DNA of 58,612 nt from a virus: positions 1-58,612 of IMG/VR virus record IMGVR_UViG_3300027833_000058; one strand, 5' to 3'. Positions 2,712 through 30,646 of this stretch are shown here, in pieces. Position numbers and translations under genes: made by a program. The notes beneath the pieces were generated by a model that was not told where the DNA came from, ran no database searches, and worked only from the letters and a program-made list of their open reading frames with translations. The first letter of the stretch is position 1. Every line of letters begins with the position of its first letter.

Positions 2712-4598
2712 TTATGCGGTTCCATTTGCCTTAGCATCGGTTCCATTTTTAGCGTCTCGTTGTTTCTTTTTGAGATCTGTAACACGCTGTTTGGCAGCTG
2801 TGATTCTTTCTCTATCTGCTGCTTTCTTTTCTGCAGCATCTGCTTTCTTTTCTGCAGCATCTGCTCTGCCTGAAGCTGAAACTCTATTAGCACCAGCTTT
2901 AGCAGCCTTTGCCGTTCCACCAACCGCTTTACCAGCAAGTCTAGCAGTACCTACAACAGCTTTAGCACCAAGTTTAAATGCTCCACCTATTGCTTTACCG
3001 ATGATCTCGTTAAGCTCTTCTTCAGTCATATCTTCGAGTTGATCTAAAGTAATATTGTTTTCATTAATATATAATGCAGTAATATCATCAATAGCAGCCT
3101 CATCTAATGACTCTTTAAAAGATTCATAGTTAGCTTGTAAGTTTTTATCATTTGCATTCTTCTTTAAGCCAGCAACATTAAGAAGTTTTTTCTTATCAGA
3201 ACCAGAAACTTTCTTCTTACTTGCATTTACACTACCACAACTGCCTTCATCTACAGTTGATTCGTTTTTAGAAACATGCTTACTTTGTATTGATCTTGGG
3301 TCAGATGCTTTATGCATATCACCAGCAGCAATAGCAGCGGCGTGGCCTTTTTTCAAAGCTTCACCAGTATTACGTGCTTTCACAGTATAACTTTTAGTTG
3401 ACTTTGTAGGATGCTGAATTTTCCAATCTGAAAATGCTTCTTCTACAGATTCTGAAGCGTCTTTAAAGTCTTGATCTGTAGGAGCACCTTTAGATCCTGG
3501 CTTCTTCATCTTTTCACCAGAACCATTTTTGATACGCTTACGTTTAGCGTGAATGTTAGCCCAAAGACCACCTTCTTCTAAATTTGTAAGATAATCATTT
3601 AATACAACACTGACTTCTTCTTTAACTTGCGACTCATGCATATGCTTTTTGTTCTTTTTTCTATAATCGCTTACTGCTTTGTTAGCGGCATGTTCGTTAC
3701 CGCCTCTACCTTTAAAGTAATGATCATGATAAGCTTGAGCTTCGCCAGCGGCATGCTCGGGCTTCTTATAAGATTTACCACCAAGATAAGAAGTCTTTCC
3801 TTCTTTATTCTTTAATTGTGCTCGGTGTCCGCCAAACTGAGATTTTTCAGAACCAGCTGTATAATCTTCTTTAACTGTTAAACTTTCAGCTCTATTTTTA
3901 TAAGGAGCTGGTTTGCCCGTCATAGAATTTGCTTTTGGATTTTTTCTTACAAGACCTTTTGGATCTTTTAAGTGAATATCAGAATCAGTTGTACGCTTAA
4001 TTTCTGAGCCAATACCTTTATGACGCTTATCAAATCTCTTTTGATGCTTGTCTTGAGCTGCCTTGGTTGCTGATCCATAATCTCCACCACCAGGCATTCT
4101 TTTATTAGCTGATTGCTTGTATTGCTTCGTAGCTTTTTTCTTATAGCTTTTTAAAGTAGCAGGAGATAACTCATCAAGTTGGTCTACAGCTTCATTCTTT
4201 GCAGCAGGATCGCCTTTAGTTACTGTGTGAGGTTTACCGTCAATGTGTACAATAGCATTACCATTTCGGTCTACATTACCATTGTAGGTACCACTTTTGA
4301 CCGCTTTACGAGCAGCCATAACCTTTGGATGTTTAGGATCAAATGTTTCATCTAAATCTAGATCTGCTTCTTCTTTAACTGAATTGCAGTTACAATGGTC
4401 GCAATCTGCGGGGCAAGGACAATCTTCTGCTTTCACATCAGAACCACAACATTCGTCTGAGCAATAAGCGTCGTTTGCTTCATTCTTTTCCCAAGGAGCT
4501 TTCTTCAATGTTACTGGCTTCTTAGGCTTTTGGGCGTCTGAAGCAAGAGCACGCTCGAGTGACTTATCTTCTGAGGTGTATTTCTTAAAACGTTTCAT
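2712..4598 (-). CDS. large Lys-rich protein with Cys cluster and targeting-like N-terminus
   Basis: The protein has 628 residues, is very rich in Lys, Ala and Glu, and is probably largely disordered. The first residues, MKRFKKYTSED, resemble the T4 internal-protein targeting sequence pattern (Met, aromatic at 4, aromatic at 7, Glu at 10). Residues about 45-75 hold a dense cluster of Cys (CSDECCG, CPCPADCDHCNC) that could bind metal. The middle is basic with repeated ESxxxEEA-type segments, possible sites for a gp21-like protease. The C-terminus is Ala/Lys-rich coiled coil with a repeated ADAAEKK unit. A co-packaged internal protein is the inferred role. It matches no family I can name. Confidence 0.6.
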   Translation of the reverse strand: MKRFKKYTSEDKSLERALASDAQKPKKPVTLKKAPWEKNEANDAYCSDECCGSDVKAEDCPCPADCDHCNCNSVKEEADLDLDETFDPKHPKVMAARKAVKSGTYNGNVDRNGNAIVHIDGKPHTVTKGDPAAKNEAVDQLDELSPATLKSYKKKATKQYKQSANKRMPGGGDYGSATKAAQDKHQKRFDKRHKGIGSEIKRTTDSDIHLKDPKGLVRKNPKANSMTGKPAPYKNRAESLTVKEDYTAGSEKSQFGGHRAQLKNKEGKTSYLGGKSYKKPEHAAGEAQAYHDHYFKGRGGNEHAANKAVSDYRKKNKKHMHESQVKEEVSVVLNDYLTNLEEGGLWANIHAKRKRIKNGSGEKMKKPGSKGAPTDQDFKDASESVEEAFSDWKIQHPTKSTKSYTVKARNTGEALKKGHAAAIAAGDMHKASDPRSIQSKHVSKNESTVDEGSCGSVNASKKKVSGSDKKKLLNVAGLKKNANDKNLQANYESFKESLDEAAIDDITALYINENNITLDQLEDMTEEELNEIIGKAIGGAFKLGAKAVVGTARLAGKAVGGTAKAAKAGANRVSASGRADAAEKKADAAEKKAADRERITAAKQRVTDLKKKQRDAKNGTDAKANGTA

Positions 4599-4655: not shown

Positions 4656-5192
4656 TTACCACTTTTCTTTATCAGCCCAATATGCTGCTGACATTTTACC
4701 CTTGGCAATATTCTTGCCGTGACGTGCTTTAAATGACTTACGTTTAGCTTTCATTTTATCAGACTCACCTTTTTTAGGATCACCTGCAGTAGAAGCACCT
4801 TGCTCGCCAAAGCGAATAGTTTTAATCTTATCACCGTCTTTAGCAACAACGATGTGTGACTTAGTAGAGTGAGAAGGAGTACGTTTAGCTTTGTTAAAAC
4901 CTGAAACACCAGCGTTTGCTAAACGAGAATCTTTTTCTTCTTTTACATCATCGCCTTCTGACTTTAAATAATCTCTTGCAGTATCTAAGTAATCAGCAGC
5001 TTTAGTAATCTTTGATTGTACCCACTCAGGTAGGTTGTCATTATCGCCAATCATAGACATCATTTCTTTTGCTGCGTCACATGCAGTTTGAAGTTGACCT
5101 TTAGACATTCCAGCTTCGTCATTATATTCGGCGGAATCTTTATCTTCTACAACCGGTTCAGACTTCATTCTTAATTCTTTGTAACTTATCAT
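4656..5192 (-). CDS. DUF6321-like conserved phage protein
   Basis: The protein has 178 residues in two parts. Residues about 28-82 are a helical block (DNDNLPEWVQSKITKAADYL). Residues about 95-178 carry the conserved RTPSHSTKSHIVVAKDG and KARHGKNIAKGKMSAAYW segments, which I recognise from memory as the DUF6321 family of large phages. Function is unknown. The N-terminus MISYKELRMKSEP partly resembles the targeting motif of its neighbours. It lies one base from the ppGpp hydrolase-like gene, so the two are likely co-translated. Confidence 0.65.
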   Translation of the reverse strand: MISYKELRMKSEPVVEDKDSAEYNDEAGMSKGQLQTACDAAKEMMSMIGDNDNLPEWVQSKITKAADYLDTARDYLKSEGDDVKEEKDSRLANAGVSGFNKAKRTPSHSTKSHIVVAKDGDKIKTIRFGEQGASTAGDPKKGESDKMKAKRKSFKARHGKNIAKGKMSAAYWADKEKW

Positions 5193-5193
5193 T

Positions 5194-5763
5194 TTAGTAT
5201 TCCTTGATCTTTTTTTCGATTGCAGTCATGATCTTATTGTGAGTTTTACTTAAGTATCTATCTTTTCTAAGGCGAGCTAATGCGACTCTTGTTTGATCAG
5301 CATATCTTTTCTGAAATTCAGGAGGTCTTGTATCAATATCTTGTACGTTGGCAAGACGATCTGCAAGCTTAACTACTAATGCCCAGCTAGACATCTTAGC
5401 CATTTTACCAGCAATATATTCACCTTTACCGACGGCGTCTGATGCTGCTTTATCTGTAGTTAATTGCTGAACCATATCTGCTACTAACGCACCAAATTGT
5501 TTAACTAAATCGGAGTATGTGGTATCAGTATCTTCTAGTGTATCATGCAAATAAGCTGCTTGGATCATAGCAGTAAGGTTATTTGATTTTTTGAATTTAG
5601 CAACAAACCTAGCAACTTCTTTAGGATGTTCAATGTACTGCCCACCACTTTTTCTAGATTGGCCAGAATGCGCTGCCGTTGCAACTCTTAGTGCTTTGAG
5701 TGCACTTTCATTCATAGATTGATCGTTAACGCCTTCACTAATGAAAGTCTTAAAATTAAGCAT
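5194..5763 (-). CDS. SpoT/MESH1-type HD phosphohydrolase (ppGpp hydrolase-like)
   Basis: The protein has 189 residues. Residues about 26-140 form an HD domain of the RelA/SpoT hydrolase type. Seen are HSGQSRKSGGQYIEHP (R37, H46), YLHDTLEDT (H73, D74, E77, D78) and KLADRLANV (D135), so the metal- and substrate-binding set of (p)ppGpp 3'-pyrophosphohydrolases is complete. There is no synthetase, TGS or ACT domain, as in MESH1-like small alarmone hydrolases. The N-terminus MLNFKTFISEG fits the T4 capsid targeting sequence with an I-x-E|G cleavage site. It may therefore be packaged and injected to cancel the stringent response (inference). An HD enzyme acting on another nucleotide is the alternative. 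Confidence 0.85.
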   Translation of the reverse strand: MLNFKTFISEGVNDQSMNESALKALRVATAAHSGQSRKSGGQYIEHPKEVARFVAKFKKSNNLTAMIQAAYLHDTLEDTDTTYSDLVKQFGALVADMVQQLTTDKAASDAVGKGEYIAGKMAKMSSWALVVKLADRLANVQDIDTRPPEFQKRYADQTRVALARLRKDRYLSKTHNKIMTAIEKKIKEY

Positions 5764-7339
5764 TTGGAGTATCTTTTTTAAACTTATTAACTAACTCATC
5801 AGTGCCTTCTTCGCCAGCACCAGATTCTTTTTTCATAGCAATTAATTCAGAAGGTTTATGATTCATTGTCTTTTTACCAACACCAACCTTAACACTATCT
5901 TTAGTAACACTCAGAACTGTACCAATTCCGCCGTGCTTCATTTTAACTTTAGATCCTTCAGGAAACTGAGATGCCATTTGCGCAATTTGCTTGCGTAGAT
6001 TCTCATCTAGGTTCTCTTCTTTTTTAGCATTAAGCTTATCTCTTAAAGCTGCAATATCTTTTTTGATTGAATCTTTTTGTGGTTTAAAATGTTTGCTTAA
6101 AGGATTATCTTTCTTTACATCATTTGCTTCTTCAGTTGATTCTATTAAATCAAATATTTCTTGACTAACATCTTCAGTAACATGCTTTTTCTTAAACATT
6201 TTGAAACGTGCATCTAATTTTGGTTTATTATTTTTATCTAATAACATGTGTGGTTTTTTTAAAACTCTTTGATCTTTAATAGATGCTTCGTTAATATCTT
6301 CTTTCTTAACTACTGATGAAGAAGATCCACCGCTCATCATTGACTTACGACGCTCACGTTCTTTTTGTTTAACTACGGGTAATAATTTACGAGCAATTTG
6401 TTCTATACGCTTCTTATTAAGTTTAGAGATACGCTTATCAATTACTTCTTTTTCACCAGCCGATAGGTCAGCATAACGTCTGCTCTTTGAAAACTTTTTC
6501 TTAAATATATTAATAGCAGCTTTACGTGCTCTTCCTTTTAATACTTCTTGAGAAGCTGTTCTTTTCTTAGCTTTTTCTCTGCCACGTTTAATCTTAAAAC
6601 GGGCTTTCCTCATAGCAAGACCACGTTTACGTCTTTGCATACGGTTTAAAACTTCTGATATATCATTTGTTTCTTCTGTCATATTCATACCTTTACGTAC
6701 TGCTGTCATAATAGCTTTAGCAGATGATCTTAGCTTTTTAGGTAAACCTTTTGTAAACTGTAGAATATCGTTTTCAACGGCTAATGCTCTCATTTTAGAA
6801 GCAGACATTCCATCTACATTATCTGAGTCTGGATCTCTAGCACCAGCAGAAACTACTGCAATCGAATCAAAAGAATAATCTTTACCATTGTAATCATTTA
6901 ATAATTGTTTGAATTGATTAACTCTATCTGATCCAACAACCATTATAAGATTATCAAATTTCTCAACAGCTTGTAATACCTTAACGATAGTATTTGCCGG
7001 AGACTTTTGAACGATAGGACCAAATGCTTTTTGCGCAAACTTTACCTTATCGTTATACTGTAACGGGTTTTTCTTTTTGTCATTAGAATGAGTTAAGAAT
7101 ACCATAGGAGTTGCTTTATATTTTTTAGCAACCGTTATCATTCTTTGTACTAACAACTCGTGGCCAGCAGTAATAGGATTCATTCTTGCAAATGTAATTA
7201 CTACAGTACTACCTGCAGCTTCCTTTATTCCACGTCCACGATCATGATCGTCAAGCTCAGGTTCTATGTTGATAAATTTACTTCCATCAAACTCTTTAAA
7301 ACCTTTTACTTTTTTCTTTTTATCTTCTGGCTGGGCCAT
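5756..7339 (-). CDS. nucleotidylyltransferase-domain protein with long basic tail
   Basis: The protein has 527 residues. Residues about 44-210 form an HxGH-type nucleotidylyltransferase fold. FARMNPITAGH (TAGH at 57-60) is the nucleotide-binding signature, VGSDRVNQF follows in the middle, and MSASKMRAL corresponds to the ISxTxxR motif. This resembles NMN or pantetheine-phosphate adenylyltransferases, but the substrate cannot be read. Residues about 230-340 are extremely rich in Arg and Lys. A small beta segment near residue 455 (SKVKMKHGGIGTVLSV) looks like an SH3/KOW module. It overlaps the HD hydrolase gene by 8 bases and has a late promoter box at 7378-7385. Confidence 0.8.
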   Translation of the reverse strand: MAQPEDKKKKVKGFKEFDGSKFINIEPELDDHDRGRGIKEAAGSTVVITFARMNPITAGHELLVQRMITVAKKYKATPMVFLTHSNDKKKNPLQYNDKVKFAQKAFGPIVQKSPANTIVKVLQAVEKFDNLIMVVGSDRVNQFKQLLNDYNGKDYSFDSIAVVSAGARDPDSDNVDGMSASKMRALAVENDILQFTKGLPKKLRSSAKAIMTAVRKGMNMTEETNDISEVLNRMQRRKRGLAMRKARFKIKRGREKAKKRTASQEVLKGRARKAAINIFKKKFSKSRRYADLSAGEKEVIDKRISKLNKKRIEQIARKLLPVVKQKERERRKSMMSGGSSSSVVKKEDINEASIKDQRVLKKPHMLLDKNNKPKLDARFKMFKKKHVTEDVSQEIFDLIESTEEANDVKKDNPLSKHFKPQKDSIKKDIAALRDKLNAKKEENLDENLRKQIAQMASQFPEGSKVKMKHGGIGTVLSVTKDSVKVGVGKKTMNHKPSELIAMKKESGAGEEGTDELVNKFKKDTPNA

Positions 7340-7376: not shown

Positions 7377-8060
7377 TTATTTATAAAATCTTTGAAAAGA
7401 AGGTATAAAATTATAATTTCTGGCTGCTGAATCTGTCCAAATAGTTGATTTTCTTAACCATCCCATTGCTGGTGTAGGAGATGCTATTGATAATGGAACA
7501 ACTGTTCTTCTTTGATTTAATATGAAGTAATCGTTATCAACGGCGCTTCTTACACCCTTTTCAAGTAATTCATCTATTAATATTTGTGCAGTTTTTTTAG
7601 TCATAGCATAAGCATGTGCACCTTCGTGACCTGCTATTTTAATAAGTTCTGTTGGTGGTCCTGCAGATGTTGAATCATATCTGCTAGGATCTTGCAACTT
7701 GTATCCAAGTGTTACAATTTCATTGTCTGGTATATTTATTGTTATTGGGTGTAGCATTATAGCATCGTGCTCAAGTATCACTCCAACCTCATCTGGCCCA
7801 TCTGCGATGGCTTTCCAGATAGCAAAGTGTCCTGCAGTACAGCACATCGCTTTATCAGCAGGACTAGGAGATTCAATGTATTGATATTCTTCAACAACGC
7901 TGGTTCTAAGTCCAATTTTCCTAAATGCCATTCTACCAGACATGTTCTGAAAACCATTAACTACTACATATTCTAAATTTACTTTACGGCAAGACTCAGC
8001 ACATATGCTAGCATACTCGTTTGATACAGGAGTATCTATTTTTAAAATGTAAGCTTTCAT
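7377..8060 (-). CDS. glycosyltransferase family 25-like protein
   Basis: The protein has 227 residues resembling GT25 (LOS/LPS-type) transferases. The N-terminal MKAYILKI strand is followed by CTAGHFAIWKAI, equivalent to the conserved SH-x-W/L helix, and by the metal-binding-type VILEHDA motif (EHD 97-99). It would transfer a sugar from a nucleotide sugar, acting in the cytoplasm on host surface glycan precursors, phage DNA or a virion protein; the acceptor is unknown. It abuts the next glycosyltransferase without a gap, which suggests they act in the same pathway. Confidence 0.75.
   Translation of the reverse strand: MKAYILKIDTPVSNEYASICAESCRKVNLEYVVVNGFQNMSGRMAFRKIGLRTSVVEEYQYIESPSPADKAMCCTAGHFAIWKAIADGPDEVGVILEHDAIMLHPITINIPDNEIVTLGYKLQDPSRYDSTSAGPPTELIKIAGHEGAHAYAMTKKTAQILIDELLEKGVRSAVDNDYFILNQRRTVVPLSIASPTPAMGWLRKSTIWTDSAARNYNFIPSFQRFYK
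7378..7385 (-). promoter_or_regulatory. late promoter box for the nucleotidyltransferase and ppGpp hydrolase genes
   Basis: TATAAATA on the minus strand, 39 bases before the start at 7339. Confidence 0.65.
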
Positions 8061-8782: not shown

Positions 8783-8845
8783 CTACTTACCGCCTTTTTT
8801 CTTCTCACCTTTAGGCTTTACATAAGTGTGGTCTGGATCTATCAT
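8783..8845 (-). CDS. possible 20-residue basic peptide
   Basis: A short reading frame (MIDPDHTYVKPKGEKKKGGK) starts with ATGA overlapping the stop of the pseudoazurin gene, the spacing typical of translational coupling in this genome. It ends 25 bases before a strong terminator. It is too short for any family assignment and could be noncoding. Confidence 0.35.
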   Translation of the reverse strand: MIDPDHTYVKPKGEKKKGGK

Positions 8846-9282
8846 AGGTCAGCCAGTACGATTAACGCTTTAAGCTTTTTCTTTGATTTACCTTTTACTT
8901 TAACATCTTTTAAACGATCCTTGGCTTCACCATCTGGTTTACCTACAACAACAATTGCAATCATGCCCATAGACTTATGCGGTGAACATTGATATAGATA
9001 CACACCTGGTACATCAAATGTAATTGCAACTTCTTTGTTTAGCTTTGATTTCTTTGGTGCTTTCCAACCGTCTGGGCCAGAGATAAACTCTACGTTATGG
9101 CCTTTTGATGTTGGTACCCAAGTAATAGTCTCGCCTACTTCGATACGTGTAATGTCTTCTGAGTAAACCATTTTGGCTCCATCATCACGTTTGTTTAACA
9201 TTTCAACTGTTACGTCGGCGTGTGCTGCAGTCACGGTAAATACTGCTGCGAAAATTGCTAGATAAAAGTATAAAGTGTTCAT
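8842..9282 (-). CDS. pseudoazurin-like type I blue copper protein, exported
   Basis: The protein has 146 residues. Residues 1-22 are a signal peptide ending AAHA, so the protein is periplasmic. The mature part aligns with pseudoazurin: VEMLNKRDDGAKMVY, VGETITWVPTSKGHNV, then QCSPHKSMGM. The four copper ligands are visible as H62, C99, H102 and M107. Pseudoazurins carry single electrons between the cytochrome bc1/c pool and terminal reductases or oxidases. The Lys-rich tail after residue 115 is longer than usual. It is the last sizeable gene of the operon that carries ATP synthase subunit c. A strong terminator follows at 8732-8757. Confidence 0.93.
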   Translation of the reverse strand: MNTLYFYLAIFAAVFTVTAAHADVTVEMLNKRDDGAKMVYSEDITRIEVGETITWVPTSKGHNVEFISGPDGWKAPKKSKLNKEVAITFDVPGVYLYQCSPHKSMGMIAIVVVGKPDGEAKDRLKDVKVKGKSKKKLKALIVLADL

Positions 9283-9440: not shown

Positions 9441-9662
9441 TTACATCTTTTTACAGTCAAAGACTGATTTTTCTAATTGTACTGGTACACCGCCTTTTGC
9501 GATACATACCTCTTTCCAGTTTGGCTCATTAAACTTTTGAATTACTGCATAGAACCCGAATGCTGTACATATTAATAATAATGAAGTCATTACCACAAAC
9601 ATATAGAAGCCTAACTTCTGTACGACTTGGGCTGATATTTCAATATGTTGATCGCCTACCAT
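9441..9662 (-). CDS. 73-residue single-pass membrane protein next to subunit c
   Basis: Residues about 17-41 form one membrane helix (FYMFVVMTSLLLICTAFGFYAV). The C-terminal region has two Cys (VCIAKGG and FDCKKM) that could form a disulphide if periplasmic. The start codon overlaps the stop of the ATP synthase c gene as TAATG, so translation is coupled. No family is recognised. The coupling suggests it works with the phage c subunit, for example in membrane insertion or ring modification (inference). Confidence 0.7.
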   Translation of the reverse strand: MVGDQHIEISAQVVQKLGFYMFVVMTSLLLICTAFGFYAVIQKFNEPNWKEVCIAKGGVPVQLEKSVFDCKKM

Positions 9663-9886
9663 TAGATGGCAAACATTAATAAGAGTGCTACTAAGAATGC
9701 AAAGATTCCTAATGCTTCTGCAAATGCAACTCCTACAAACATTGTGCCAGTATCTGGCTTCTTAGGCATTACCTTTAGTACACTACCTACAATTATTCCT
9801 ACGCCGATGGCTGCGCCACCCATACCAATTGTTGCTAACCCTGCGCCAATTAAGGCACCCATTGTTGCTATATCACCTGTAATCAT
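9662..9886 (-). CDS. atpE: F0F1 ATP synthase subunit c homologue
   Basis: The protein has 74 residues, the normal size for subunit c. Helix 1 (about residues 8-36) has the Gly/Ala pattern [21 protein letters not shown]. Helix 2 (about 48-74) contains the proton-binding carboxylate E57 in [19 protein letters not shown], closely resembling alphaproteobacterial c subunits. The polar loop, normally R-Q/N-P and contacting the F1 stalk, reads MPKKPD here, so the conserved Arg is replaced by Lys-Lys. The protein could join the host c-ring and change proton coupling (inference). Both ends are coupled to neighbours by TAATG. Confidence 0.93.
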
Positions 9887-10092
9887 TATTTGCTCTCCAC
9901 CATTAATCTTCTTGCTTCTTCTACATACCCTTGACGGTATAACTCACTAGCAGCTCTTGCTCGACCTGCTGATTCACCAAACGCCCATAGGAACATTCCT
10001 GTTGCTACGATTGCTTTACTTAATATTTTTAAAGTTGTTTTTAAAGTTGTTTTTAAAGGATTGCTTACATATTCTGCATTTGCTAATTCCAT
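9886..10092 (-). CDS. 68-residue small protein with a hydrophobic segment
   Basis: The N-terminal part contains [13 protein letters not shown], encoded by a threefold direct DNA repeat (TTTTTAAAGTTG-like). A short hydrophobic stretch follows ([13 protein letters not shown]), then a basic amphipathic helix ([25 protein letters not shown]). The protein is unrecognised. The start overlaps the stop of the DUF1127 gene and its own stop overlaps the atpE start, both as TAATG. A role linked to subunit c is inferred from this strict coupling only. Confidence 0.65.
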
Positions 10093-10532: not shown

Positions 10533-10724
10533 TTATTCATCTGGATCATCTAAATCTGGATACTGATCAGGGAATTGTTCTTTATGTGCTGCAAGCATTA
10601 ATGCCTCAGTATCAAACTCCTGTACAGTAGCGTCATCACGATACGATACAACATTAGATTCACTTAATGAAATTGCTCCATCGTTGATAATAAAATAGCC
10701 TTCTGTTTTAGTTAATATAGCCAT
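10533..10724 (-). CDS. 63-residue acidic protein downstream of the repeat protein
   Basis: The start chosen is ATG 10724 (MAILTKTEGYF). It overlaps the stop of the repeat protein as TAATG and has GGAGGAAC upstream, so the longer in-frame start at 10754 is unlikely. The protein ends in an acidic FPDQYPDLDDPDE tail. It is unrecognised. Small partners downstream of fibre-like genes are often assembly factors, but nothing here proves that. Confidence 0.6.
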   Translation of the reverse strand: MAILTKTEGYFIINDGAISLSESNVVSYRDDATVQEFDTEALMLAAHKEQFPDQYPDLDDPDE

Positions 10725-12400
10725 TACGCTGTTCCTCCATCTGAAATTGTCCATCCGTCTGTACTAATTAGATTAGCTCTTGCTGCTTCTGCAGCACCAC
10801 CTGCGGTGTATTGACTGTACCCAAAGTGAGCAGACAGACCATCAAATGGATCCTGAGCATCCCAGTTGATTAAAAGTGCATCATAACGTGCGGTGGGTAA
10901 TGTTACACTACTCATAAAGATATTCAAAGCATAGGTACTGTTAAGGGCTTCAATATTAAAGTTCTCAACGCCATTGATATCTGTGAGACTGGAGCAAGAT
11001 GTGAACATCATTGACATATTTGTAACAGATGATGTATTAAAACTACTTACATTGAGTGATGTGAGACCGGAGCAAACCATAAACATTTGACTTATATTTG
11101 TAACAGATGATGTATTAAAACCACTCACATCGAGTGATGTAAGACTTCGACAATTATAAAACATCACGCTCATATCTGCAACACTTGATGTATTAAAACC
11201 ACTCACATCGAGTGATGTAAGACTTCGACACTGTGTAAACATCCTGCTCATAGTTATAACTGATGAGGTATCAAAATTACTTACATCGAGTGATGTGAGA
11301 CTGAAGCAATTATAAAACATATTATTGAAATGGGTAGCAGATGATGTATTAAAGTTGCTCAAATCAAGAGACGTGAGATCATACATTCGATTAAACATAC
11401 CACCAAATCCAATGCCAGAAACAGATGAGGTATCAAAACTACTTACATCGAGTGATGTGAGACTTCCACAATCATAAAACATGTTGTACATAGTTATAAC
11501 AGATGAGGTATCAAAACTACTTACATCGAGTGATGTTAAATCTTTATTTTCATTGAACATATAGCTCATATCTGTAACAGATGAGGTATCAAAGTTACTC
11601 AAATCAAGCGTTGTTAAATCTCTACAAGCGTGGAACATTCGCAGCATATTTGTAACAGATGAGGTATCAAAACTACTTACATCAAGCGTTGTTAGTTTGA
11701 TCATAACGAACATATAGCTCATATCTGTAACAGATGAGGTATCAAAGTTACTCAAATCAAGCGTTGTTAGTAGATGAGGACCATTGAACATTCCATGCAT
11801 ATTTGTAACAGATGAGGTATCTGTAACACCAACATTAAAGCTAGTCATGTTACCACATGACTTAAATGCGTTTACAAAGCTTTGCCAGCCGACTGTACCA
11901 AGGTTAGTTACTGTGATGACTTTTCCAGCGTTTGTTGAATTGTTACCAAATTTGATATTAGGGAACGTACCACTGATACTGATTGAGTGATCTCCAGCCG
12001 ATGCGTAAGTATGTGCTAGATTAGAATCATTATATGTTGTAACTGTAGATGATGAACCATCACCCCAATCAACAGTTGCGTTAAATGTTCCTACATTGTC
12101 ACAAGGTATGGTAAATGTCTCGCTGGCTGCTGTAGTCCTAACGGTCATGTCAAATGATGTACTTACATCATCCTCATCACCTCTTGCGTCCCAAAAGGAT
12201 TTACTTAATTCACCTCTGCTTGTATCAGCAGTATCACCAACTCTACGAACTTTAATATAAGTTAGTTGAACACTACCACCGGTAGGTGTAAATGTTCTAA
12301 TACCTGATACACATGATCCGTTTGCACCAACACAATCTGCTGACGTGGCCATATCATCATATTCCCAATCAGGGCTATTTGGAATTGCTACCCATGTCAT
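10724..12400 (-). CDS. BspA-like (DUF285) leucine-rich repeat protein with PKD-like domain
   Basis: The protein has 558 residues from ATG 12400. That start overlaps the upstream stop as TAATG and has GGGTGGA as Shine-Dalgarno. Residues about 95-150 contain VDWGDGSSSTVTTYND and HTYASAGDHSISI, a PKD-like beta domain. From about residue 175 to 500 there are roughly a dozen repeats of about 25 residues of the form FDTSSVTDMSYMFxxCxxLTSLDLSN, the BspA/DUF285 type. Such repeats occur in surface adhesins, so a virion surface or receptor-binding role is likely. There is no signal peptide. Confidence 0.8.
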   Translation of the reverse strand: MTWVAIPNSPDWEYDDMATSADCVGANGSCVSGIRTFTPTGGSVQLTYIKVRRVGDTADTSRGELSKSFWDARGDEDDVSTSFDMTVRTTAASETFTIPCDNVGTFNATVDWGDGSSSTVTTYNDSNLAHTYASAGDHSISISGTFPNIKFGNNSTNAGKVITVTNLGTVGWQSFVNAFKSCGNMTSFNVGVTDTSSVTNMHGMFNGPHLLTTLDLSNFDTSSVTDMSYMFVMIKLTTLDVSSFDTSSVTNMLRMFHACRDLTTLDLSNFDTSSVTDMSYMFNENKDLTSLDVSSFDTSSVITMYNMFYDCGSLTSLDVSSFDTSSVSGIGFGGMFNRMYDLTSLDLSNFNTSSATHFNNMFYNCFSLTSLDVSNFDTSSVITMSRMFTQCRSLTSLDVSGFNTSSVADMSVMFYNCRSLTSLDVSGFNTSSVTNISQMFMVCSGLTSLNVSSFNTSSVTNMSMMFTSCSSLTDINGVENFNIEALNSTYALNIFMSSVTLPTARYDALLINWDAQDPFDGLSAHFGYSQYTAGGAAEAARANLISTDGWTISDGGTA

Positions 12401-13635
12401 TATTTCATCCACCCTTTAATGTATTTGTCTGAAAAGTTTGCGTTACTAAATTCAAGTCTATCAATTAATTTAACTGCGTTCTTACCCATCTTATCGATAG
12501 CAACAAATCCTTCTTGGGATGTTACTTGGTAACCGTCTGCAGTTCTAAGTAGTGTGCCAACTTGCTTTGCTTTATCTAATTTTTGAATTACTTTATGTTT
12601 AGCATCAATGATTAGATTATATAATTCGAATACTGCTACTAATTGAGCAGGTTTTGTTTTTCTAAAATATTCTAACGTAGCATCTCTTTTACCACGTTGT
12701 GCTACTTTACCTTTTTCAGATTTACGTTTCTCTTCTTCGTTCTTATAGAATCGAGTAATGTAGTTCTGTAAATCTCTTACGAATGCTTTTGGATTCTTAA
12801 TTCTTTCGCCAGCACGGATTTTAGTGTTAACGAATACTTTTGTTTTTGCAAGAGTATCTGGTTCTAATGCAATACCGTCAAGTGTTTCTTTACGGATTGT
12901 TCTAAATAATTTACCAGCAGAAGATAGAATCTTGTTAAGCTCTTCTGTTTCTTTCTTTGTAAAGTTTGCTGTACCTGATATATCTTGGTAAGATGCGTCT
13001 ACTGACCAGACCGATTTTGTTCTCTTAAGATCAGAAGCAATCTCCTCTCCAAAACTTGCAGACATTTCTTCAAAGCTTGATCCTCTGTAGACTGTGTGCC
13101 ATACCACACCGACCTTGGATCCGAGAATTTGTTTGCCGAGTTCTGAGTTCTTAGGTACCGCGTAAACAATCGTATTAGGATGGAAAGTAATGTGCGGTTC
13201 ACCTTCAATATCCACCACCTTGAGATCAGCCTTATCATATAAAAAATCACCTTGTACTACGCCCTTGATACCGAGTTTTGAAAACTCAGCCAGTGCTAGC
13301 TTTAATTTAGAATTTAAACTATCTTTGCCTACTGTATCAGCATCGATATCTGCATTAGTCTTATATACCATTGGGTTCTTATTAAAGATACCCTTCTTAG
13401 CAACGAAGAACTTACCATCTGATGGATCAGTTCCACAAAATATAGCAGGAGCTCCGTCCCATTTAACCGAAACATTAACTTTGGATTTAGCAGTGCCGGC
13501 TAACATATCTCTCAACGAACGTAAGAAATTGATAGCGTCTCTTGTGCCATTTACACCGTGATTCAATATAGAATCTTCAAGATGTTCCATATGCGTGTTT
13601 TTATTTTCAGTAATATACTGTTTGAAGCCGTGCAT
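12400..13635 (-). CDS. DUF6267-like protein with ligase-type KxDG motif and targeting-like N-terminus
   Basis: The protein has 411 residues. VSVKWDGAPAIFCG near residue 60 matches motif I (KxDG) of nucleic acid ligase/adenylyltransferase folds. GVVQGDFLYD near 140 could be motif III/IIIa and GIALEP near 255 motif IV/V. Together they suggest a covalent nucleotidyltransferase, such as an RNA or DNA ligase, belonging to what I recall as DUF6267. The start MHGFKQYITEN fits the T4 capsid targeting pattern with an I-x-E cleavage site, so the enzyme may be carried in the head. Activity is inferred from motifs only. Confidence 0.65.
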   Translation of the reverse strand: MHGFKQYITENKNTHMEHLEDSILNHGVNGTRDAINFLRSLRDMLAGTAKSKVNVSVKWDGAPAIFCGTDPSDGKFFVAKKGIFNKNPMVYKTNADIDADTVGKDSLNSKLKLALAEFSKLGIKGVVQGDFLYDKADLKVVDIEGEPHITFHPNTIVYAVPKNSELGKQILGSKVGVVWHTVYRGSSFEEMSASFGEEIASDLKRTKSVWSVDASYQDISGTANFTKKETEELNKILSSAGKLFRTIRKETLDGIALEPDTLAKTKVFVNTKIRAGERIKNPKAFVRDLQNYITRFYKNEEEKRKSEKGKVAQRGKRDATLEYFRKTKPAQLVAVFELYNLIIDAKHKVIQKLDKAKQVGTLLRTADGYQVTSQEGFVAIDKMGKNAVKLIDRLEFSNANFSDKYIKGWMK

Positions 13636-19960: not shown

Positions 19961-20193
19961 TGTTTATTCTCCTTAATACTTGAAGTTGCTTTAACACTGC
20001 CACAATTGGCGCAATAAACAATTGTTGCAATAAACTGGTGTTTACCGATTTTAATGTTTCTTTTACCAGTTGATATATCTATTATATCACAACAGCCATT
20101 AACTGTCAACTGTTTATTTGAATTATTATTAACTCCTGATATCTTAGAGATAGGCTTAATTTCCAGTCCAAAATTACGTCTGTTAATCATCAT
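19957..20193 (-). CDS. 78-residue protein with Cys pairs
   Basis: It contains CCDI and a CANCGS pair that could form a small metal site. GAGGAAC precedes the start and the gene overlaps the end of the bilin reductase gene. Two adjacent ATGs (20193, 20190) are both possible. Function is unknown. Confidence 0.5.
   Translation of the reverse strand: MMINRRNFGLEIKPISKISGVNNNSNKQLTVNGCCDIIDISTGKRNIKIGKHQFIATIVYCANCGSVKATSSIKENKQ
20081..20109 (-). promoter_or_regulatory. early promoter for the 66-residue gene, 33 and 59
   Basis: AACAGTTGACA, 17 bp, TATAAT on the minus strand, a near-perfect sigma70 site inside the 78-residue gene. Confidence 0.8.
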
Positions 20194-20872
20194 CTAGTTC
20201 CTCAAATAATACATTGTTAACATACTTTTCTTTATCTTCTTCTGATATTCCCATTGCTAAAATAGAACGGTGTAAGTGTGGATTAAGCTTTTGATTTTGA
20301 CAATACTTGTTTAGTAATGGTTTTATATTACGATGACTATCGAGAGCATTTGTATCTATGTTATCTAGGTAGTGATCTACTAAGTCAGTTGTTACTGCGA
20401 TAAACTGATTAAGCTCTTCGTCAGTCTTAATGTTACCGACTGCAAGCATGTCTTTTGAAAATATCTCTTGAGCCCACGGTGGTAATTCTCTAGGTTTGTT
20501 CCATTCTAAGTCTTTAACTCGCCTTTCCATATATTCATTATACGGATGCGGAAAACCACGCAAAGGACTGTAATCCATAAACGAACCTGTAATCTTTTTA
20601 GGTCCTGCTACAATATCAAATCCAAGTATAGGCAATTCGTAGCTTGGATCTGGAAACACATTCACATGCATTAGCCACAAACCTTTACCATCTGCCGGTA
20701 CAATTGTTTTTAAATGAGCTTTTGATACTTGATCAGAGTGCCAAAAAGTATCATTCCAATCTTTAAATTTAAGATCATCTGTATACTTTTCGTTATCATA
20801 ACGAGTAAAATGTTTATCGAAGCTTGCTGAAATATAATCAGCATAACCGTTTAATCTATCCCATAGTTCCAT
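20183..20872 (-). CDS. ferredoxin-dependent bilin reductase (PcyX/PebS/PcyA family)
   Basis: The protein has 229 residues, the usual size. The family core is seen as HVNVFPDPSYELPILGFDIV followed by KKITGSFMDYSPL. D100 in MDYSP corresponds to the catalytic Asp105 of PcyA-type enzymes. The family reduces biliverdin IX-alpha to phycobilins with electrons from ferredoxin. Phage members (PebS, PcyX) make phycoerythrobilin; which product is made here cannot be read with certainty. It lies in the same operon as heme oxygenase, which supplies biliverdin. The host appears not to be a cyanobacterium, which favours the PcyX group. Confidence 0.88.
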   Translation of the reverse strand: MELWDRLNGYADYISASFDKHFTRYDNEKYTDDLKFKDWNDTFWHSDQVSKAHLKTIVPADGKGLWLMHVNVFPDPSYELPILGFDIVAGPKKITGSFMDYSPLRGFPHPYNEYMERRVKDLEWNKPRELPPWAQEIFSKDMLAVGNIKTDEELNQFIAVTTDLVDHYLDNIDTNALDSHRNIKPLLNKYCQNQKLNPHLHRSILAMGISEEDKEKYVNNVLFEELDDD

Positions 20873-23601: not shown

Positions 23602-23757
23602 TTATTCGTCACCTACCCACAAGTTGATAGTTATTAGGTTTTTGTCTTTTTTACTTATTGCATATTCTATATCTAAATCAAATAACGCTTTTCTTAATGC
23701 AATTAACTTATCGGGTTCTTTAGGTTTTATCCATTGTTTTATCGGATGTTCGTCCAT
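23602..23757 (-). CDS. 51-residue small protein coupled to MazG
   Basis: The frame starts at ATG 23757, overlapping the MazG stop as TAATG, and ends just before a terminator. It contains EHPIKQWIKPKEPDKLI and NLITINLWVGDE. It is unrecognised; the coupling makes it a convincing gene. Confidence 0.6.
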   Translation of the reverse strand: MDEHPIKQWIKPKEPDKLIALRKALFDLDIEYAISKKDKNLITINLWVGDE

Positions 23758-24170
23758 TATAAAGCTTTCTCTAAATCACCGTGGTTACCTTCGTGAGATG
23801 GAGCTACCCAACCTTCAGGTTTAATCAAATCAGGCAACCCAAACGGATTCGGACGGCCTTCTTTAACGCCAACAGATTTTTCCATATTAGCGTTGTAAAC
23901 CCTTTGCCAAGCAGCAGTAGCATCAATACCAAAGACATCGAGAGTCCCAATAGCAAAAACACACATGTCGATAAGACCATCGACAATTTCTTCAGGGTCT
24001 CGAGCTTCGATTGCATCCATTGTTTCATCTAGTTCTTCCTTACACATTGAAAGTCGGAAACGCAAATACTTATCCATCAAGTCTTTGTTGTCTTTATTGG
24101 CTTCAAACCAATCTTTTACACCAAACTTGTGGTGCATGTCGTTAATGTCTTTAGACCAGTTATAGCTCAT
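23757..24170 (-). CDS. mazG: MazG-like NTP pyrophosphohydrolase
   Basis: The protein has 137 residues. CKEELDETMDAIEARDPEEIVDGLIDMCVF has the EExxxE plus ExxD helices of the all-alpha NTP-PPase superfamily. Phage MazG proteins hydrolyse (d)NTPs and have been proposed to affect nucleotide or alarmone pools. The C-terminal 40 residues (NPFGLPDLIKPEGWVAP) are a non-catalytic tail seen in phage versions. It has its own early promoter at 24196-24224. Confidence 0.82.
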   Translation of the reverse strand: MSYNWSKDINDMHHKFGVKDWFEANKDNKDLMDKYLRFRLSMCKEELDETMDAIEARDPEEIVDGLIDMCVFAIGTLDVFGIDATAAWQRVYNANMEKSVGVKEGRPNPFGLPDLIKPEGWVAPSHEGNHGDLEKAL

Positions 24171-30037: not shown

Positions 30038-30604
30038 CTATTTTGTTTTTGGGTCTGCATCTTTTTCTGTATTAGCGTCTTTTTCAATTTTATCAGCTTT
30101 TTTCTTAGCTTTGTCTCTTGCTAATTTATCTTCAAAGTCTTCAATAAAATCATTCATGTAATCTGCTGCTGTACTGAGATGAATATTAAGATCTTCACCA
30201 GAAGAGTATGTACCACCAGTAGTAATCATATGTTGAGAAGACTTGAAACGAATATACATTTGCTTCTTCTCTTTAGCGATTCTACGTAGGAAAGCATACC
30301 AGATAATTTGCGTAAAATATGCAAACGGATTCTGAGATTTTTCTTCATTAAAGTTCATTATATATAATAGACAGTTTTCGATACCGTCTGAGATCATATC
30401 TTCTTTATAAGAATATCCAGAGAAATTTGGTTTTGTTGCTAATCTTGTCGCTATCTGAAATATGCAAGTACCTATGTAATCTGGTACTCTTGGTCTTCCT
30501 TCACCTGCGTCTTCTGCTTCTCTGCAGAGTTGCTTGTATGCGACCAAAGCGTCAAGAAGGTCTCTGTTATTCACGTAATTGCGAGTGGCTCGTCTTTTTG
30601 CCAT
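30038..30604 (-). CDS. 55: late sigma factor, T4 gp55-like
   Basis: The start is placed at ATG 30604 (MAKRRATRNYVNN), because GGAGG of the ribosome site overlaps the longer start at 30619. The protein has 188 residues. DMISDGIENCLLYIMNFN and NPFAYFTQIIWYAFLRRIAKEKKQ correspond to sigma region 2 as in T4 gp55. The Lys-rich tail would reach the sliding clamp. It directs polymerase to TATAAATA boxes, at least ten of which occur in this window. Confidence 0.92.
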   Translation of the reverse strand: MAKRRATRNYVNNRDLLDALVAYKQLCREAEDAGEGRPRVPDYIGTCIFQIATRLATKPNFSGYSYKEDMISDGIENCLLYIMNFNEEKSQNPFAYFTQIIWYAFLRRIAKEKKQMYIRFKSSQHMITTGGTYSSGEDLNIHLSTAADYMNDFIEDFEDKLARDKAKKKADKIEKDANTEKDADPKTK

Positions 30605-30646
30605 TGGAAATACCTCCATTGATGTAGTTAAAATCTATTTAAATCT

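Follow-up and report, generated by a model that had tools for sequence, protein, structure and literature searches.

Small alarmone hydrolases (SAHs), which include MESH1 and bacterial enzymes such as P. aeruginosa SAH and C. glutamicum RelH, consist of a single HD_4 domain of ~170 residues and carry no synthetase domain. The phage T4 internal proteins (IPs) IPI, IPII and IPIII bear a capsid-targeting sequence (CTS) and, like the T4 protein Alt, are ejected with the DNA. Both parts, the phage SAH and the T4 CTS, are already known. We analysed the whole IMG/VR virus record IMGVR_UViG_3300027833_000058 (58,612 nucleotides, 58.6 kb; hereafter the window), in which an SAH gene begins with a T4-type CTS, suggesting that the enzyme is probably injected with the viral DNA. 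The window SAH shares the fold and the metal and catalytic residues of MESH1 and the bacterial SAHs; unlike MESH1, it has a disordered N-terminal tag of 16 residues and lies in a phage late operon, and its activity is predicted. With the T4 IPs and Alt it has in common the CTS register, a basic body of 19-20 kDa, a candidate L/I-X-E site and, in its longest relatives, a gp21-type protease. Unlike these T4 proteins, the cargo is an alarmone hydrolase rather than a restriction inhibitor or ADP-ribosyltransferase, and its place in the virion is predicted.

SAH domains homologous to that of the window occur in Vibrio, Burkholderia and Pseudomonas phages and in Salmonella phage SSU5 (PaSpo), with identities of 44% for BcepSaruman, 40% for pv27 and 35.6% for SSU5 (2e-9). 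PaSpo is known for reversing the tRNA modification made by toxSAS. The cyanophage protein T4-GC190 is a CTS-tagged, virion-reported cytidylyltransferase of a marine T4-like phage and, unlike the SAH, is not a hydrolase. Cyanophage MazG is a pyrophosphohydrolase to which a lowering of ppGpp in marine hosts has long been ascribed as a proposal; it neither binds nor hydrolyses (p)ppGpp (PMC6850273), whereas the SAH belongs to a family that hydrolyses (p)ppGpp. A MazG-like gene is also present in the window (23757-24170). A literature search, with subscription journals mostly outside its reach, returned no report joining a phage SAH with the T4 CTS and no paper applying the CTS to proteins of cyanophages or other marine phages.

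The hydrolase gene and its domain are as follows.
5194-5763, minus strand: SAH (MESH1-like), ATG start, 189 aa, 21.2 kDa, pI 9.5
5287-5694, minus strand: HD hydrolase domain, residues 24-159, Pfam HD_4 match

The reading frame is open at exactly these positions and is real. Its product matched Pfam HD_4 above the family cut-off (E=3.4e-17) and PHROG 990, 'metal-dependent phosphohydrolase' (8.7e-30), and its closest relatives by sequence in the PDB were the hydrolase domains of Rel (6.5e-18) and MESH1 (1.8e-16). When the window SAH was aligned with 74 other phage SAHs, Q35, H46, H73, D74, E77, D78, T79, F90, V98, K132, D135 and N139 were invariant over all 75 sequences and R37 nearly so, the conserved residues forming the HD/metal, ED catalytic and KLADR(L)xN motifs. 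Alignment to Rel and MESH1 showed that all metal ligands and catalytic residues are present in the window (H46, H73-D74, E77-D78, D135 and N139, together with R37-K38); we take these to be the equivalents of the numbered RelSeq residues. No Pfam family other than HD was found in the protein, and thus no synthetase, TGS or ACT domain. A search for the RelA_SpoT synthetase domain (PF04607) was likewise empty in the window and four relatives, while the same search was positive in 11 of 14 control genomes. The original prediction, made from the sequence, that the whole SpoT/MESH1 hydrolase site is kept and that no synthetase domain exists is therefore borne out.

An AlphaFold (AF2) model built from the 75-sequence alignment reached a pLDDT of 91.3; an earlier model from 24 close relatives (pLDDT 53.7) was discarded. 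In Foldseek, the nearest solved structures were human MESH1 (6.8e-8) and P. aeruginosa SAH (TM 0.77/0.83). The SAH core gave pN/pS values of 0.06-0.21 against diverged relatives, indicating purifying selection. Close relatives were found at 74 IMG/VR loci and more distant ones in 437 of 50,697 phage records, so that phage SAHs as such are not new; when IMG/VR was searched with the Vibrio pv27 SAH, no relatives of it came up. In an unrelated phage contig, an SAH domain lies within a 2371-aa protein (L159:345-7460), in which Pfam recognises only HD families and phrog_2072 matches near the C-terminus. A start of the window SAH at the internal Met17 was rejected, as most relatives have Leu at that position and nearly all full-length ones have the upstream tag.

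Taken together, sequence and model make it almost certain that the window gene encodes an SAH enzyme. Its family, fold and active-site residues uphold the proposal of a stand-alone hydrolase, whereas (p)ppGpp as its substrate, also part of that proposal, is not readable from the sequence; for an SAH-type active site (p)ppGpp would be the default. MESH1 structures with NADPH and PAPS (5vxa, 9chy) were among the best fold matches, and the operon partner of the SAH is nucleotidyltransferase-like, both of which would suit an enzyme acting on NADPH or another 3'-phospho-nucleotide (a MESH1-type NADPH phosphatase) in nucleotide or cofactor metabolism beside the cytidylyltransferase. We consider this chemistry very improbable, as every residue of the Rel/SpoT 3'-pyrophosphohydrolase site is retained, the ED pair among them, and the best matches by sequence are Rel enzymes.

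We then compared the N-terminus with the CTS of T4. The first ten residues of T4 IPIII suffice for head targeting; mutants tie residues 4 and 7 to targeting and residues 8 and 10 to processing by gp21, which cleaves after L/I-X-E (PMC9026906). The tag of the window SAH is encoded here.
5734-5763, minus strand: CTS, 10 codons, MLNFKTFISE, with F4, F7, I8 and E10 in the T4 IPIII register and a predicted gp21 cut after E10 (ISE/G)

The SAH starts M-L-N-F4-K-T-F7-I8-S-E10-G, in the same register as the T4 CTS, and a putative prohead-protease site of the L/I-X-E type ends the tag (I8-S9-E10/G11). The targeting-like N-terminus noted earlier is thus real. Among 27 unique N-termini of relatives starting M-x-x-F, position 7 was aromatic or His in all 27, Ile8 occurred in 18 and Glu10 in 21, and positions 3, 6 and 9 were variable. 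A score matrix built from the SAH tags only and run over 335 T4 open reading frames (ORFs) ranked IPIII first, IPII second, the protease inhibitor Inh third and IPI fifth; all three IPs would fall in the top five by chance with a probability of ~1.6e-6. A strict pattern, M..[FYW]..[FYWH][ILVMT].E, with a background of 2.7e-4 per internal position, matched 2 of the 335 T4 ORFs, exactly IPII and IPIII; finding these two is partly by construction, and the lack of false matches in T4 is not. The same pattern matched one of 395 ORFs in cyanophage S-SM1, namely GC190, and five of 346 in G001, a relative of 182.7 kb, all five between 103 and 120.4 kb. In the window it matched 3 of 107 ORFs against 0.03 expected (P ~4e-6), namely the SAH and the following two.
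2712-4598, minus strand: 628-aa protein with strict CTS (MKRFKKYTSE), ATAAATA 34 nt upstream
12400-13635, minus strand: DUF6267 protein with strict CTS (MHGFKQYITE), Pfam DUF6267 2.8e-111

The window DUF6267 protein has conserved KWDGAPA, QGD, EGxV and KLVDR motifs and the look of a covalent nucleotidyltransferase of the RNA/DNA ligase type; DUF6267 occurs in 454 phage records, mostly of cyanophages.

The tag behaves as an exchangeable module. Between the window and locus L002, the SAH DNA is near-identical from codon 17 to the stop, and the 165-aa core is 100% identical. Upstream of codon 17, the window has MLNFKTFISEGVNDQSM and L002 has MKSFNQYIAEDTM, which are unrelated, yet residues 4, 7, 8 and 10 are alike in kind. 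At this border lies a second candidate processing site, identified by alignment with relatives and by the comparison with L002.
5707-5715, minus strand: MNE/S, residues 17-19, where tag and enzyme meet; second candidate site for the prohead protease

N18 and E19 of this site are invariant in 24 relatives, and the site is the recombination breakpoint of the tag swap. A candidate protease site [LMF]-[ND]-E-[SN] is kept at the start of the core in nearly all versions of the SAH, and extra sequence stands between tag and enzyme in L059, L064 and L039. In the structural model, residues 1-16 are disordered and order begins at about residue 17. We infer that the prohead protease may process the SAH at the MNE/S-type site; without its tag, the enzyme has a mass of 19-20 kDa and a pI of 9.6-9.7. 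The T4 IPs are basic and of 8-20 kDa (PMC9026906).

The original prediction had also placed a late promoter at the SAH. Such a promoter is present for the operon; it lies ahead of the gene that precedes the SAH, at a distance of 39 nt, rather than immediately before the SAH itself.
7378-7385, minus strand: T4-type late promoter TATAAATA for the cytidylyltransferase-SAH operon, 39 nt upstream
5756-7339, minus strand: cytidylyltransferase-like protein, 527 aa, first operon gene, phrog_3041 4.5e-59
4656-5192, minus strand: 178-aa protein with C-terminal phrog_7595 domain and a weak match to phrog_220 minor head protein/DNA pilot
30038-30619, minus strand: gp55-type late sigma factor, phrog_234 2.1e-59, which would read the late promoter

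The ATG of the SAH overlaps the 3' end of the cytidylyltransferase-like gene by 8 nt, and TATAAATA stands before that gene, which makes the SAH second in a late operon. Of 16 TATAAATA sites, 12 lie 0-80 nt ahead of a gene start, compared with 4.6% of random positions, and the spacing before the tail-tube gene is 39 nt as well. Taken by itself, the ATAAATA core shows no enrichment in the window (30 sites against 31.8 expected), so that only the full TATAAATA and its nearness to gene starts are informative. This promoter predicts late expression of the operon. Late synthesis fits a soluble, unpackaged enzyme equally well, whose N-terminal segment would have another role, such as binding a phage complex, and which would keep ppGpp low or counter capsid-triggered CapRel late in the same infection. 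CapRel is indeed activated by the major capsid protein, i.e. late (PMC9712102), and SAHs occur in many phages outside this group (437 of 50,697 records), of which pv27, the sole one examined, is tagless. We judge this reading improbable given the exact CTS register, the specificity of the pattern in T4 and S-SM1, the swap that keeps residues 4, 7, 8 and 10, and two findings presented below, the fusion to a homologue of a virion protein and the co-oriented island of tagged genes.

The SAH is further linked to a virion protein through its operon partner. A 'citidylyltransferase', GC190, is listed among the proteins of purified S-SM1 virions (Sullivan et al., PMC3037559), and the S-SM1 genome record identifies GC190 as SSM1_190. 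The window cytidylyltransferase is 38% identical to SSM1_190/GC190 (6e-38); a PDB search with it gave chance matches only. This GC190 homologue of the window begins MAQPEDKKKKVKGFKEF, without a strict tag. Because ~41 of some 230 S-SM1 proteins were detected in virions, the success of the pattern with GC190 alone would arise by chance with a probability near 0.17. The second virion core protein that Sullivan et al. name, T4-GC15, was dropped as tag evidence; it is a tail protein in S-SM1 and hence uninformative on the tag. In L153 (2808-6401), one ORF of 1197 aa joins cytidylyltransferase, DUF5824, SAH and phrog_7595 domain, with cytidylyltransferase, SAH and phrog_7595 in the order found in the window, and in L154 the SAH lies inside another long fusion. 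VNE/A- and LDE/S-like motifs stand between the domains of the L153 fusion, a possible polyprotein that the prohead protease would cut.

We also examined the genes around the SAH loci for the tag. The strict tag was present on 73 of 1264 unique other ORFs against 0.34 expected, and all 150 tagged ORFs have the same orientation as the SAH; many of these ORFs are related by descent, so that the counts are descriptive only. The tagged ORFs fall into 23 sequence clusters, which include a CCA-adding enzyme, an ADP-ribosyltransferase-like protein, DUF6267 and nuclease-sized unknowns. The ADP-ribosyltransferase-like protein (PF03496 2.6e-5; L059:9998-10939, with homologues in L012, L053, L054, L061 and L068) lies near the SAH, is CTS-tagged in L059, L061, L068 and L012, and recalls the T4 cargo Alt, an ADP-ribosyltransferase. 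The CCA-adding enzyme/poly(A) polymerase (PolyA_pol 2.8e-17) adjoins the SAH or lies closely downstream of it at four loci.
L038:10570-11796; L052:11163-12368; L055:1761-2966; L056:11163-12368: CTS-tagged CCA-adding enzyme

In G001, a 559-aa protein between portal and protease (163779-165458, minus strand; gp67/68 position) begins MKTFKNLIAEV, a CTS-like start within the phage's own prohead operon. G001 and G002, the longest relatives, both carry the SAH on their contigs and encode a gp21-type prohead protease, and in the gp23 of G001 an LQE/A site stands at the place of the T4 gp23 site.

The composition of the island bears on what a packaged SAH would act upon. It could be counter-defence cargo directed not at the stringent response but at the products of toxSAS/CapRel, which it would reverse (3'-pyrophosphate on the CCA ends of tRNA, or (pp)pApp), and the CCA-adding enzyme and the ligase-like DUF6267 would then complete a tRNA/RNA repair kit. 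The tagged CCA-adding enzyme at the four loci fits this proposal, as do the KWDG and EGxV motifs of DUF6267, typical of ligase-type nucleotidyltransferases, and the precedent of T4 IPI, a packaged anti-defence protein. Reversal of tRNA pyrophosphorylation by toxSAS/CapRel is within reach of a phage SAH (PMC11559606), and freshly synthesised major capsid protein sets off CapRelSJ46, which pyrophosphorylates tRNA (PMC9712102). The CCA-adding enzyme is, however, absent from the window and from most relatives, and no toxSAS is known in the host. MESH1-like active sites also serve ppGpp, and the sequence therefore cannot separate the two readings. We regard the counter-defence account as rather unlikely overall. 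If the SAH is packaged, (p)ppGpp as its main target is about evenly balanced, and toxSAS products (tRNA-3'-PP, (pp)pApp) are a possible but less favoured main target.

The account that we favour, and hold to be more likely than not, is that of a CTS-tagged capsid cargo, injected and most likely acting on (p)ppGpp. The cytidylyltransferase-SAH-phrog_7595 operon would be transcribed late from the gp55-type promoter, the ten-residue CTS would dock the SAH into the prohead core, and a gp21-type protease would cut after ISE(10) and/or MNE(19), leaving a basic, fully folded enzyme of 19-20 kDa inside the head. At the next infection, the SAH would be ejected with the DNA, like the T4 internal proteins and Alt, and would take the 3'-pyrophosphate off hyperphosphorylated nucleotides, of which (p)ppGpp is the most likely, and so release the host growth brake from the very start. 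By simple arithmetic, some 100 enzymes, each making a few turnovers per second, would clear 1e4-1e5 molecules in minutes, which is roughly as much ppGpp or tRNA as a small bacterium contains.

That the SAH is packaged cargo appears likely, as the CTS register, the calibration in T4 and S-SM1, the tag swap, the virion-protein homologue in the operon (fused once to the SAH) and the late promoter are mostly independent lines. The earlier proposal of injection with the DNA is thus well supported but unproven, and several observations weigh against it. GC190 was detected in S-SM1 virions but not in those of S-PM2 (PMC3037559). A gp21-type prohead protease is absent from the 58.6-kb contig and present only in longer relatives. 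A few relatives have degenerate tags, with E10 replaced by Q, H, S or N, or MMKFQTFNES in L057. The Vibrio pv27 SAH (40% identity), the only distant phage SAH examined for a tag, lacks one, which makes packaging no general feature of phage SAHs. The further claim that the stringent response is erased in starved ocean cells before replication is a plausible guess, since 3'-pyrophosphorylated tRNA or (pp)pApp from toxSAS/CapRel defences could equally be the substrate.

The remaining genes of the window place the phage among T4-like viruses. The T4-like core genes comprise gp41, UvsX, gp32, gp59, DNA polymerase, gp46/47, gp55, UvsW, UvsY, tail tube and topoisomerase II, and Kyanoviridae DNA polymerases are ~44% identical to that of the window. 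A plastocyanin/azurin-like copper protein (8842-9282, minus strand, 1.2e-15) and a ferredoxin-dependent bilin reductase (20183-20872, minus strand, 2.1e-18) are of the electron-transfer or pigment type usual in cyanophages. The two matches from a scan of genome contigs, on contigs assigned to a Bacteroidetes and a Rhodobacteraceae metagenome-assembled genome, were rejected as host assignments; both proteins bear the CTS, and the contigs are therefore read as misbinned phage contigs, providing neither host genes nor host evidence. A 74-aa protein (9662-9886, minus strand) matched ATP synthase subunit c (Pfam ATP-synt_C 6.3e-13), is flanked by small ORFs at 9441-9662 and 9886-10092, and has no similar protein among the 50,697 phage records. 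A 562-aa protein (10724-12412, minus strand) carries repeated leucine-rich (BspA-like) repeats of the TSSVTDMSYMF type, with like repeats in C48C1 CDS0091.

Whether marine phages tamper with the starvation alarm of their hosts is an old question that has centred on MazG, and at the SAH locus an enzyme from the appropriate family comes with an indication of immediate delivery. The CTS, so far a feature of a few T4 proteins, becomes a usable search rule, as the ten-residue pattern recovers IPII, IPIII and a reported cyanophage virion protein, and in uncultured marine phages it predicts dozens of injected proteins not recognised before. More tentatively, and with slightly less than an even chance in our judgement, marine T4-like phages may possess a modular capsid-cargo island in which at least 23 protein clusters, unrelated to one another, bear an exchangeable CTS of ten residues. 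Each virion would then inject a ready-made group of enzymes to disable starvation or tRNA-targeting defences and to repair RNA ahead of all phage gene expression.
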